Of a stretch of DNA of 58,929 bases, positions 22,964-25,471 are shown piece after piece. Numbering within the stretch: the stretch's first letter is position 1; each line of letters begins with the position of its first letter. The stretch is taken from the NCBI GenBank assembly GCA_947588745.1, contig CANPYW010000011.1, positions 1 through 58,929 of the forward strand, written 5' to 3'. The DNA comes from Candidatus Gastranaerophilales bacterium (GTDB taxonomy: Bacteria; Cyanobacteriota; Vampirovibrionia; Gastranaerophilales; Gastranaerophilaceae). The translations under genes and the position numbers were made by a program. Under the pieces are notes generated by a model, which was not told the origin of the DNA, ran no database searches, and saw only the letters and a list, made by a program, of their open reading frames with translations.

Positions 22964-22993
22964 AAAAGAGAGTCAAATAATTGACTCTCTTTT
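22964..22993. terminator. Bidirectional terminator between groL and the radical SAM gene
   Basis: A 13-bp perfect stem (22964-22976 with 22981-22993) and a 4-base loop, with T runs on both sides. It ends groL on the plus strand and overlaps the stop codon of the convergent radical SAM gene. Confidence 0.9.
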
Positions 22994-24147
22994 TATATAT
23001 GTTTAGATGAAGAATATTTTAAATAAGCCTTATAATATGCGATTGCATCTTCGCATAATGTTTTGGATTTCTTTAAAAAACCACTATCATAACAGGTATA
23101 TATTGGGCAATAAACACAAAATCTGCAATAATCTTGTTTAAAACATTCTTTTAAGTTTTTACAGATTAATTTTTTTTGAAAATCAGGCACTATATTTTTT
23201 ATAACATTTGCTAAAGATGATGTCTTATAATTTTCCAGAGGATAATTAAAATAATTACAAGGGTGTATATCTAAATTAGGTGCGATACTTATTCTGTCTA
23301 TACCGCCTGAGCAAGGAAGTTTTTCTTTATTTTTAATATTTTCACGCAAATTTTTTATATCCATGTTTTCGTAATAATATTTGATTAAATCATCTTCTTT
23401 TACTCTCACATCAAAATTATTATTGCTTTTATTATTTATAAATTTTGACAGAGAAAAAAAATTTGCTCCAATAAATTTAGCAAATTCTTTTACTTTTAAA
23501 TCTTCTTTAAAATTAAGAGCTATCCGAGGACAGGTTATAGCGGTTGATATATTATAGTTTTTTAGCTTTTTTATAACTTCAACTGTCTTATAATGAGAAC
23601 CTTTAACATTAGTAATACTATCATGTATATAAGAGTTCATACTAAAAAGTGTTGTTTGAATAATTGCAGGATTGAGATTAACTATCTTTTCAAATAGATA
23701 TTCATCATCATAGAATTTTTGTGCATTAGTATAAATAATTAATCTGAGGTCATTTTTTACAATATATTCGGCAATTTTCAAAAAATCATAATTTATTGTA
23801 GGTTCTCCACCGGTTAGTATAACCTCAAAAATACCAAGTGATGAAGCTTCTTTAATAATATTTATTGCATTCTCAAAGTTAATATAGTATTTATTCATAT
23901 TTTTAGGGTTACAACAGTTAATACAATTTTGATTGCAGCTATAATTCAAATTCAAATAAAGCGATGATAAAAAACCATTTTTTGTTAAAAAATCAACTGT
24001 TTTATCCCTGAAAAAATCATAAGATATATCATTTTGTTTAATTGAAAATACTAAATTATTATCTTTTAGTACATACCAAATTTTATCCTTATTATTTTCA
24101 ATATAAGTAACTATAGAACCGTTCTTCAAATGATAACTTTTTTGCAT
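22993..24147 (-). CDS. Radical SAM/SPASM peptide-modifying enzyme (candidate RiPP maturase)
   Basis: The 384-residue protein has the radical SAM cluster motif C-x3-C-x2-C at Cys71, 75 and 78 (SCNQNCINC), the SAM-binding LTGGEPT at 112-117, and a partial TIM barrel. Residues 277-384 form a SPASM-like region with nine cysteines (279, 297, 329, 335, 341, 344, 347, 352, 365), enough for auxiliary 4Fe-4S clusters; IAPNLDIHPC is the SPASM-type turn. The first 62 residues (IVTYIENNKDKIWYVL) could be a peptide-recognition domain, but this is inference. SPASM enzymes usually modify ribosomal peptides or activate enzymes. The gene directly follows a 50-residue peptide gene (34 bases), as in RiPP operons. 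No obvious relation to pfl activation. Confidence 0.85.
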   Translation of the reverse strand: MQKSYHLKNGSIVTYIENNKDKIWYVLKDNNLVFSIKQNDISYDFFRDKTVDFLTKNGFLSSLYLNLNYSCNQNCINCCNPKNMNKYYINFENAINIIKEASSLGIFEVILTGGEPTINYDFLKIAEYIVKNDLRLIIYTNAQKFYDDEYLFEKIVNLNPAIIQTTLFSMNSYIHDSITNVKGSHYKTVEVIKKLKNYNISTAITCPRIALNFKEDLKVKEFAKFIGANFFSLSKFINNKSNNNFDVRVKEDDLIKYYYENMDIKNLRENIKNKEKLPCSGGIDRISIAPNLDIHPCNYFNYPLENYKTSSLANVIKNIVPDFQKKLICKNLKECFKQDYCRFCVYCPIYTCYDSGFLKKSKTLCEDAIAYYKAYLKYSSSKHI

Positions 24148-24181
24148 ATTTTATTTGATTTTATTTTAATAAAAATTTGAT

Positions 24182-24334
24182 TTACCAAGCTGTATTTGAC
24201 ATCTGACCTTTACAACGGTAAGCATCAATTGCTATAAACGGCCCGGATACTTCAAGTATTTTGTCATATAGTTCGTTTATTTTTTCTATAGATAAATCTG
24301 TAAATTCTACATTATTTTCATTGTTATCTGACAT
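24182..24334 (-). CDS. Short peptide, candidate RiPP precursor (50 residues)
   Basis: A 51-codon frame lies between the ATP-grasp gene and the radical SAM gene, with a good GAGG ribosome-binding site 5 bases from its ATG that overlaps the ATP-grasp stop. The first 25 residues are acidic and helical (VEFTDLSIEKINELYDKI), like RiPP leaders. The C-terminal part (GPFIAIDAYRCKGQMSNTAW, residues 31-50) has one cysteine (Cys41) and a C-terminal Trp, unlike a leader and plausible as a core. I recognise no known precursor family. Identity as a substrate of the adjacent enzyme is inferred from position, size and composition. It falls below normal gene-calling length limits. Confidence 0.7.
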   Translation of the reverse strand: MSDNNENNVEFTDLSIEKINELYDKILEVSGPFIAIDAYRCKGQMSNTAW

Positions 24335-24341
24335 TTTGTCC

Positions 24342-25181
24342 TCATTTCAAAACCAGCATTTTACCATAACGAAGTTGTAATTCATCTTGCTTTTCTGCAA
24401 AGAAAATAAAACCTGATAATGGCGTAAAGGTCATTTCTTCAAAATAAAGTTTATTATTATATACCATCCAGTCAACCCTGACTAGTTTAAAATCTTTAGA
24501 AAGTTTTTTACTTAAATCAATAGCATTTTTTAATATATCAACACAGTCAATAAAATATGTAACACCATATTTATTTTCTGTTAGAAATTTTATATTTATA
24601 TTTTCTAAATTTTCATCTAATGATGTTATATTTCCTCCATTAAAAACCCTTGATATAAGTGGTTTCCCGTTAAAACACCAAATTTGAAAACTAACATTTT
24701 TATCGTACAATAATTCTTCAATTATGATTTTAGGAATAATATTTTTATATTGTGTTTCAAAATCACTCCAACCAAAATAAGTTTGATTTAACCACCCCCA
24801 AAATAAATTTCTCGAAAAATTATATGTTTGCTGCGTGCTGAGATATTCATTTTTATTCTTAACAACAACGTGCCATTTGCAGCCATGATTTACTTTAATT
24901 ATAAAGGAATTTGGCAGTGATGAAAAAGGAATATCATCAAAACTATCACCAATCCAAAGAACAGGTTTTAAATATTCATCTCCAATTTGAGTTTTAATCC
25001 AATCACGAACTAGAACTTTATCTGTTAAAGTGGTTTTTATTGGTAAATTATCATAAAGTTTTAACCATTGTATTTTTTCATTTAATGTTTTAGGCTTTCT
25101 TAAATTTAATTTCTCACCTGTCTTAAGAAAATAAGCTTGAGATAGATAATAAGGATACTCTTTATCATCTAAACTTAACAT
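24342..25181 (-). CDS. TupA-like ATP-grasp domain protein (coding part after a frame break)
   Basis: This 279-residue open frame matches the TupA-like ATP-grasp family, named from teichuronopeptide synthesis and often found among surface-polysaccharide genes. Features are KPKTLNEKIQWLKLYD, LTDKVLVRDWIKTQIGDEYL, PNSFIIKVNHGCKW (ATP-binding lysine strand), and VRVDWMVYNNKLYFEEMTFTP with the metal-binding Asp and Glu. The family domain starts at the first residues of this frame. However, the nearest ATG (25181) has no ribosome-binding site, and an upstream frame with a plausible start is joined to it only if one G is added to, or two removed from, a run of eight. It stops 7 bases before the 50-residue peptide gene. 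Confidence 0.75.
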   Translation of the reverse strand: MLSLDDKEYPYYLSQAYFLKTGEKLNLRKPKTLNEKIQWLKLYDNLPIKTTLTDKVLVRDWIKTQIGDEYLKPVLWIGDSFDDIPFSSLPNSFIIKVNHGCKWHVVVKNKNEYLSTQQTYNFSRNLFWGWLNQTYFGWSDFETQYKNIIPKIIIEELLYDKNVSFQIWCFNGKPLISRVFNGGNITSLDENLENINIKFLTENKYGVTYFIDCVDILKNAIDLSKKLSKDFKLVRVDWMVYNNKLYFEEMTFTPLSGFIFFAEKQDELQLRYGKMLVLK

Positions 25182-25228
25182 AAAACTATAATCATAAACA
25201 GATTCATCACTATGTTTAAAATGAGATT

Positions 25229-25357
25229 TTACCTGGTAAAGGCTCTTGTTTGTCCCCCCCCTTGAAGAAAATCAAGGAAATTAAAATTATTATTAACTTT
25301 TAGTTTAGAGAGGTAATTTTGAATACTATTAGAAATATCTTCAAAATTAAAAGCCAT
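25229..25357 (-). pseudogene. 5' fragment of the ATP-grasp gene, out of frame at the G8 tract
   Basis: An ATG at 25357, with AAGAGA upstream and TATAAT-like boxes beyond, opens a frame MAFNFEDISNSIQNYLSKLK that reads into the G8 run. It then stops after 42 codons. Adding one G (nine) or removing two (six) makes it continuous with the downstream ATP-grasp frame, giving a 338- or 337-residue protein with no internal stop. The present length therefore corresponds to an OFF state, a true mutation, or an assembly error in the homopolymer. Confidence 0.6.
25254..25261 (-). repeat. Homopolymer run of eight G (minus strand)
   Basis: The plus strand shows eight consecutive C at 25254-25261, the most conspicuous G/C homopolymer I noticed in this AT-rich window. 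It falls inside codons 33-35 of the ATP-grasp gene, a classic place for slipped-strand phase variation. Confidence 0.85.
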
Positions 25358-25442
25358 ACTATTCTCTTATAATTCCAATTTGATTATATAATAATATTTT
25401 TTACATTTCAATATATCGTTACGCCTTATCAACTAAAATAAA

Positions 25443-25471
25443 AATAGACTCATAATAAATATGAGTCTATT
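25443..25471 (-). terminator. Terminator after the PPi-phosphofructokinase gene
   Basis: A 12-bp stem (443-454 with 460-471 of the 25 kb block) lies 29 bases after the pfp stop. A T-rich run follows on the minus strand, isolating pfp from the ATP-grasp/peptide/radical SAM operon. Confidence 0.85.

Follow-up and report, generated by a model that had tools for sequence, protein, structure and literature searches.

The window analysed here is a stretch of 58,929 nucleotides from contig 11 (CANPYW010000011.1) of the draft genome of a Candidatus Gastranaerophilales bacterium (1,998,657 bases in 63 contigs), and the subject of the analysis is a three-gene cassette on its minus strand, a candidate system for a ribosomally synthesized and post-translationally modified peptide (RiPP). 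In the order of reading, the cassette consists of a gene for a TupA-like ATP-grasp protein (24342..25357), a gene of 50 codons for a peptide (P0002; 24182..24334) and a gene for a radical S-adenosylmethionine (SAM) enzyme (P0001; 22993..24147), with terminator-like hairpins on both flanks. The peptide open reading frame (ORF) begins 7 bases after the ATP-grasp gene with a GAGG immediately 5' of it, and the radical SAM ORF follows 34 bases further on; this unit, described in an earlier note made from the letters of the DNA alone, was confirmed from the ORFs and their Pfam matches.

One point was missing from that note: the ATP-grasp gene is not a single open frame but is split over two frames, one on each side of a run of eight G (G8; 25254..25261, minus strand). 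The start-side segment (25229-25357, minus strand) opens with the ATG at 25357, enters the G8 and then meets a stop, in a frame that differs from that of the ATP-grasp. The ATP-grasp frame runs without a stop from a point ahead of the tract down to 24342 and includes the ORF at 24342-25181 that matches Pfam ATPgrasp_TupA (PF14305). The G8, which is off-frame in the present assembly, is the proposed phase-variation switch discussed below.

Within P0002, identified by leader profile and alignment, we distinguished a leader part (about residues 1-31; 24242..24334, minus strand) containing LSIEKINELYDKILE and a core part (about residues 32-50; 24185..24241, minus strand), PFIAIDAYRCKGQMSNTAW, with the boundary inferred from the end of conservation. 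Cys41 is the only cysteine of the peptide and Trp50 its last residue, both as previously described.

A promoter-like site with 11 of 12 matches (TTGAAA-17-TATAAT; 25383..25411, minus strand) lies 25 bases upstream of the ATG at 25357, and the regional frequency of such sites was not above that in shuffles. A hairpin scan placed the bounding terminators of the earlier note at 25443..25471 (minus strand), downstream of pfp, and at 22964..22993 (plus strand), where the hairpin separates the convergent groL and radical SAM genes; the stretch has 3 such hairpins versus 0.7 in shuffles. The AT-richness that the note had taken as a possible trace of transfer was borne out locally, with a GC content in 1-kb windows of 0.24-0.26 in the cassette versus 0.30-0.38 in the flanks, but it says little by itself because other parts of the window (about 28-29.5, 34.5-36.5 and 54.5-58.5 kb) are equally AT-rich. 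The pfp gene was present in 39 of 41 genomes of the genus, and none of 30 pfp loci showed groL within roughly 1.5 kb on the far side of that gene (L325 being the window's own locus, filled by the cassette, and L335 having only 6 bases there), so that no empty site is at hand.

Precursor peptides and the ATP-grasp clade

The comparison covered these 41 Gastranaerophilales genomes of the genus and 50 loci with homologous radical SAM enzymes. A motif search of the 50 loci returned 21 peptides with one leader pattern, and more were found through a ribosome-site search. We aligned 22 precursors (19 of the 21 found by motif and three found by ribosome site; two peptides of locus L067 were omitted for their tracts). 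Their first half aligned as MxxNxDxxDLxNLSIxEINELFxDIIExPD, their second half could barely be aligned, and a Cys lies behind the leader in 21 of the 22. The earlier note had proposed a comparison of short frames beside homologues of the enzyme and had placed the modified core in the C-terminal half; the frames compared here share the N-terminal half and differ in the C-terminal half, a pattern of conserved leader and variable tail that agrees with this putative core. A short precursor adjoining modifying enzymes, with a conserved leader and a variable core, is the make-up of a RiPP cassette.

The 106 ATP-grasp units examined (a set that excludes ATP-grasps lacking the C-terminal part and units sharing an identical 3' end) included 78 with a small ORF behind the ATP-grasp gene (25-170 residues, a ribosome-site-like word, start at -25 to +80 from the stop), and 618 of 4000 random positions satisfied the same definition. 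In 18 of the 78 the peptide start lies one base behind the ATP-grasp stop, and loss of ATP-grasp translation may therefore also lower translation of the peptide. Leader profiles applied in a 2-fold hold-out gave 60 matches at E ≤ 0.01, with 59 directly behind an ATP-grasp stop and 1 elsewhere, which shows that the profile is specific (only one stray match in 416 kb). A profile from 69 other leaders, trained without the window, found P0002 at E 7.5e-10 in a six-frame search of the whole window (next match, 0.66), so that P0002 is more than a chance ORF.

Leader and tail diverge at different rates in the 51 units where both could be parsed. In the four bins with ATP-grasp identity < 75%, tail identity was 24-26% and leader identity 36-49%, with shuffled tails at 22.5%; for the two bins of closest relatives, with 6 pairs apiece, leaders were 71 and 80% identical and tails 30 and 39%. 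Tails in radical SAM units are composed of 8.2% Cys and 11.8% Gly. A known precursor family was ruled out, since at E ≤ 1 every NCBIfam model hit at most 1 of the 22 precursors. The peptide might instead assist the enzymes as a small regulatory or chaperone subunit and not be their substrate, and its leader half, which is acidic and conserved and by eye could be a helix, would suit such a role. We nevertheless hold this to be very unlikely: the C-terminal half varies to about the shuffled level while the ATP-grasps stay 51-64% identical, and this half is rich in Cys and Gly, with the Cys behind the leader kept in nearly every aligned precursor.

The window ATP-grasp matched PF14305 at E 2.2e-28 (99.9 bits versus a cut-off of 25), which was its only Pfam match up to E 1, and a profile search of solved structures gave no relative at E ≤ 1. 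An alignment of 30 ATP-grasp rows has 21 invariant columns, and the range of 51-64% identity refers to the window protein and the 21 ATP-grasps listed beside it there. The ATP-grasp was found at E ≤ 1e-15 in 34 of the 41 genomes of the genus; radical SAM homologues at E ≤ 1e-30 were found in 19 of the 41, and a sample of 241 genomes of the order had them in 8.

A tree was built from 115 ATP-grasps (66 leader-linked, 28 others of the genus set and 21 from outside the genus), leaving out rows interrupted by a stop or lacking a near-complete domain, and was rooted at the midpoint, with the bootstrap not fully settled. All 66 leader-linked ATP-grasps fall inside one clade of 71 with 100/100 support, and none is among the 44 outside it. 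No radical SAM gene was found in the next 900 bases in 42 of the 66 (3 of the 42 judged on shorter sequence), and for this reason we regard ATP-grasp plus precursor as the core unit; the radical SAM enzyme was ruled out as the defining partner on the same count. The RiPP-type cassette put forward by the earlier note is thus supported with a correction: the constant partner is the ATP-grasp, and the radical SAM enzyme is an add-on. In 23 of the 26 rows of a subclade with 100/98 support, a radical SAM gene follows downstream; the exceptions are L265, L270 and L266, the last cut by a contig end.

Outside the genus, none of 20 loci (from 20 of 41 outside genomes with a match) had a leader directly behind the ATP-grasp, and one (L320) had a single weak leader match elsewhere in the locus. 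Of the outside-genus neighbours, two were scanned: that in L322 is a UDP-glucose dehydrogenase, and that in L306 a glycosyltransferase-like protein whose score fell slightly short of the Pfam cut-off. A glycan amide ligase may thus have been recruited to peptides, perhaps once.

Some other ATP-grasps of the window's genome lack a radical SAM gene, and a leader-like peptide with a tail holding Cys and Tyr follows at least four of them. Separately, two genomes (G126 and G248; loci L245-L264) have 59 and 58 ATP-grasp profile matches, fragments included, and in G126 all 14 units that entered the tree have a leader peptide next, mostly with a long Cys/Tyr-rich tail.

The radical SAM enzyme and other peptide types

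P0001 matched Pfam Radical_SAM at E 5.3e-18, and its CX3CX2C triad (residues 71/75/78) is invariant across a 43-row alignment. The nine cysteines that the earlier note had counted in a SPASM-type C-terminus are present after residue 270 (279, 297, 329, 335, 341, 344, 347, 352 and 365); seven of them are conserved in all but one or two of 47 aligned rows, and the C-terminal Cys spacing is CX17C..CX5CX2CX2CX17C. A Pfam SPASM match at E ≤ 0.01 was obtained for 34 of 43 family members, and P0001 is not among them. Another Cys position differs in the window: at 23800-23811 P0001 has GGEP, and 42 of the 47 aligned rows have Cys at the last position of this motif.

Against NCBIfam, P0001 lay far under the curated cut-off of each of the 25 families shown of 40 matching, with a best score there of 62.8 bits versus 267.9 (HxsC), 38.6 bits against AlbA (cut-off 850) and 40 against SkfB (cut-off 300). 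P0001 therefore falls short of the curated score for the named SPASM RiPP classes (sactipeptide, ranthipeptide and others) among these 25 of 40. The earlier note had held that grouping of the enzyme with anaerobic sulfatase-maturing or other protein-activating SPASM enzymes would speak against its proposal, and no such grouping appeared at the 25 cut-offs.

By profile, the closest solved structure is SkfB (E 1.2e-23). The AlphaFold2 model of P0001 (mean predicted local distance difference test score, 92) begins with four strands and one helix, and most homologues have 100-150 residues in the N-terminal part that P0001 has shortened. Compared with Pfam PqqD, the N-terminal domains of homologues gave matches below the cut-off only, in 3 of 4 given (E 0.0099-0.17), and 1 of 43 family members matched PqqD as a whole protein (E 0.001). 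A PqqD-like RiPP recognition element is likely present in the radical SAM family and shortened in P0001.

Two other assignments were set aside. A defence system found no backing in PADLOC, which gave only viperin models for P0001 (residues 65-218, E 1.1e-7) and none for P0002 or P0003, and a phage origin found none in PHROGs, where the sole match was one radical SAM family, with P0001.

Related loci contain peptides of other kinds. The genus also has a further group of radical SAM paralogues that adjoins other peptide types, sometimes with YcaO or a divergent ATP-grasp. YcaO genes at L088 424-2190, L098 5219-6889 and L101 5307-7037 (coordinates of turned loci) have short basic peptides and radical SAM paralogues in their vicinity; they were identified by PF02624 for L088 and by sequence clustering for L098 and L101. 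A second and far more conserved peptide (MLKITKVVGQSVANMSGCGKxTDNxCGIxAKxG and kin) precedes a related radical SAM enzyme: it has 33 residues in Clostridia loci (L186 2642-2743, L187 2657-2758, L189 2578-2679, L192 1742-1843, L194 2656-2757, L195 2677-2778 and L196 2573-2674) and has relatives of 32-36 residues in Gastranaerophilales (L092, L093, L096, L097, L100, L106 and L107). In L186, L189, L194, L195 and L196 a protein of about 300 residues stands between this peptide and the radical SAM enzyme, the L194 copy being without a Pfam match.

Neighbours of the radical SAM cassettes include an asparagine synthase-like protein (PF00733) directly after the unit of ATP-grasp, precursor and radical SAM enzyme in L086 (5071-6762, turned locus), and, in L075, L085 and L088, a protein of about 315-345 residues with a YGSPxxxW-like motif recognized by eye (L075 without a Pfam match). 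In eight loci (L063, L066, L067, L070, L082, L089, L094 and L099) the cassette seemingly occupies one shared site, by eye after a response-regulator-like gene, before a conserved protein of about 800 residues, or both. Cassettes of the same type in L158 and L162 are on short contigs binned as Bacilli and Clostridia and are possibly mis-binned.

Homopolymeric tracts in the ATP-grasp gene

Tracts were defined as G/C runs of ≥ 8 located between -220 and +120 relative to the start of the ATP-grasp domain and were counted in the 92 units with a full 5' end (14 of the 106 were excluded). Such tracts, of lengths 8-11, occurred in 15 of the 27 units where a radical SAM gene follows downstream, in 4 of the 60 that have none and in 0 of the 5 where it lies upstream (Fisher's exact test for 15/27 versus 4/60, p 1.3e-6). 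Elsewhere in 655 kb there were 16 tracts of ≥ 8, two of them inside precursor genes. Across the family, a long homopolymer in the 5' coding part occurs above background, as at a contingency locus; the window alone is not above chance.

The ATP-grasp frame stays open back through the tract in all 19 tract-bearing genes, and relative to the nearest plausible start it is offset by 0 in 5 genes, by 1 in 6 and by 2 in 8 (for L063, L071 and L080 this start is uncertain, and that of L023 is a GTG). In L074, two tandem cassettes of one genome have an identical start peptide, the G9 copy in frame and the G10 copy off. In L067 the ATP-grasp is tractless and the two precursors carry C11 and C9 at the leader/core junction, with the alternative frame behind each C tract reading as a core-like tail that ends in GGPK or GGGK; L102 has a G7 run within the core. 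Three close pairs that include off-frame genes gave dN/dS of about 0.16, 0.21 and 0.32.

The split window gene could be a decayed ATP-grasp, leaving the peptide and the radical SAM enzyme to act alone, and the frame shift at the G8 in the present assembly would be the sign of that decay. This seems scarcely probable, given that similar tracts stand at the matching place in 15 of 27 units and cover all three frames, that the downstream frame of the window gene, counted from its first ATG, has 279 codons without a stop and that the protein still keeps its identity to the listed relatives.

Alternatively, the cassette may be a RiPP cassette without a switch, in which programmed ribosomal or polymerase slippage at the poly-G always yields some full-length ATP-grasp. 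The frame open through the tract in 19 of 19 genes would fit, as would the purifying selection under which the close pairs, off-frame genes included, appear to be. Yet a fixed shift predicts one direction, and all three offsets occur; the same genome has 29 G runs of ≥ 8, two in polysaccharide pyruvyl transferase ORFs and others in ORFs that by eye are surface-like, a contingency-like setting. On balance we consider programmed slippage unlikely.

Repertoires of homopolymer-bearing surface genes, as in Campylobacter, are known as contingency repertoires. In the whole genome G000 (loci L108-L136, 2.0 Mb), runs of ≥ 8 G were counted on two strands; two of the 29 are in polysaccharide pyruvyl transferase ORFs and others are, by eye, near surface-protein-like ORFs. 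These runs probably form such a repertoire.

Proposed mechanism and comparison with known systems

The comparison of loci shows the gene order, the pattern of leader and core, the single ATP-grasp clade and tracts at matching places in three frames. From these we think it probable that the locus is a phase-variable RiPP cassette built around a glycan-type amide ligase. The undescribed RiPP-like system of the earlier note thus gains support from the leader/core pattern, in a unit larger than the note saw.

Leader recognition, the types of bond and slippage in living cells are inferred from this pattern. The N-terminal half of the precursor would serve as a leader, delivering the peptide to the TupA-like ATP-grasp and the radical SAM/SPASM enzyme and binding the PqqD-like domain and the ATP-grasp, and the short, fast-changing C-terminal half would be the core modified by both enzymes. 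The ATP-grasp would form an ATP-driven amide or ester, as a ring within the peptide or a bond to another molecule. The radical SAM enzyme would crosslink or otherwise alter the core, probably at or near Cys; a thioether at the core Cys is possible because nearly all aligned precursors (21/22) carry a Cys behind the leader. Poly-G slippage in the 5' coding part would toggle the ATP-grasp between in-frame and out-of-frame, and clonal cells would differ in making the finished product.

Several points weigh against this proposal, which is drawn from gene comparison. The hold-out recovery of the leader at 54 of 64 test loci (416 kb, six frames) is flattered, as the hold-out was not fully blind and the peptides had been pre-picked by position and a loose motif. 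Five ATP-grasps of the 71-member clade have no leader match (L063, L265, L274, L282 and L284, with only 171 bases downstream in L274). A tract of ≥ 8 is lacking in 12 of the 27 units with a radical SAM gene downstream, a ribosome-site-like word precedes only 4 of 18 ATG starts before a tract, and the single G8 of the window is unremarkable, since 18 of 100 shuffles have one. The tract pattern matches slipped-strand phase variation through differences between loci, with one genome per species. No exporter, protease or immunity gene was noticed in the cassettes, whose neighbours were not scanned systematically.

If the proposal holds, the cassette would represent a RiPP pathway on a glycan-type amide ligase with precursors alignable only by their leader, and a random on/off switch would lie within a modifying enzyme. 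Peptide chemistry would gain a new amide-forming enzyme, gut Gastranaerophilales would yield a large collection of peptides rich in Cys and Tyr, and the phase variation acting on a modified peptide would be directly testable. A further and rather doubtful extension is that the ATP-grasp keeps its ancestral chemistry (an amide on the uronic acid of a surface glycan) and couples the modified peptides to cell-surface polysaccharide, giving a hypervariable peptide coat that can be switched. Each genome would then use its ATP-grasp/precursor pairs, from one to dozens in number, to vary antigens or phage receptors, with switching by tract slippage in the radical SAM branch.

In the open-licence literature we found no report of a TupA-like ATP-grasp together with a RiPP among the matches listed, none of phase variation of a RiPP through a homopolymeric tract and none of a phase-variable radical SAM peptide RiPP. 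There, a search on radical SAM in Gastranaerophilales gave only matches that, in their accessible portions, look unrelated, and the match on phase variation in Melainabacteria concerns flagellins in the portion at hand. Neither the switch nor the enzyme pairing was found described in that literature, with the broader searches covering only the top matches listed.

The ATP-grasps of graspetide pathways are of the MdnB/MdnC-like type. In the accessible portion of PMC8939145, the Bacteroides graspetide 'branch 5' loci combine an ATP-grasp, a SPASM enzyme and variable precursors. The present cassettes resemble them in setting an ATP-grasp and a SPASM radical SAM enzyme beside short, often Cys-bearing precursors, and in joining similar enzymes to very different precursors (PMC8939145, same portion). 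The earlier note had called a TupA-like ATP-grasp an unusual partner in RiPPs: that pairing was not found in the open-licence literature, but ATP-grasps in general are less exceptional in this role than the note had assumed, because the Bacteroides loci pair one with SPASM (PMC8939145, in the part available). Unlike branch 5 as described there, the ATP-grasp here matches PF14305, the leader reads LSxEEINELYxDIIE and the gene holds a poly-G tract. The GG and MKKL motifs given for branch 5 precursors in that portion of PMC8939145 are absent from the consensus here, and LPL proteins were not searched for.

The nearest functional parallel for the ATP-grasp is the TupA-like domain of Cj1438 in the Campylobacter jejuni capsule, which, according to the accessible portion of PMC11800379, forms an amide with the C6 carboxylate of glucuronic acid. 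The ATP-grasp type is the same, but Cj1438 is there a glycosyltransferase fusion in a capsule locus, whereas the clade of the genus adjoins precursor peptides (PMC11800379, same portion). P0001 resembles SkfB and other SPASM maturases in its radical SAM core and SPASM-type Cys set, and differs from them in lying below the curated cut-offs shown, in its own Cys spacing and in the single Cys of the window peptide.

For the switch, the comparison is with the nap island of Neisseria, where napR carries a poly-G and napC a poly-T and the bacteriocin-like peptides are thought to be phase variable (PMC11798529, accessible portion). The tracts there lie in a regulator and a peptide, and that portion names no modifying enzyme, a distinction made by description only (PMC11798529). 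In tying homopolymer tracts to switched peptides, the nap island, as described in that portion of PMC11798529, is the nearest precedent for a switched peptide.

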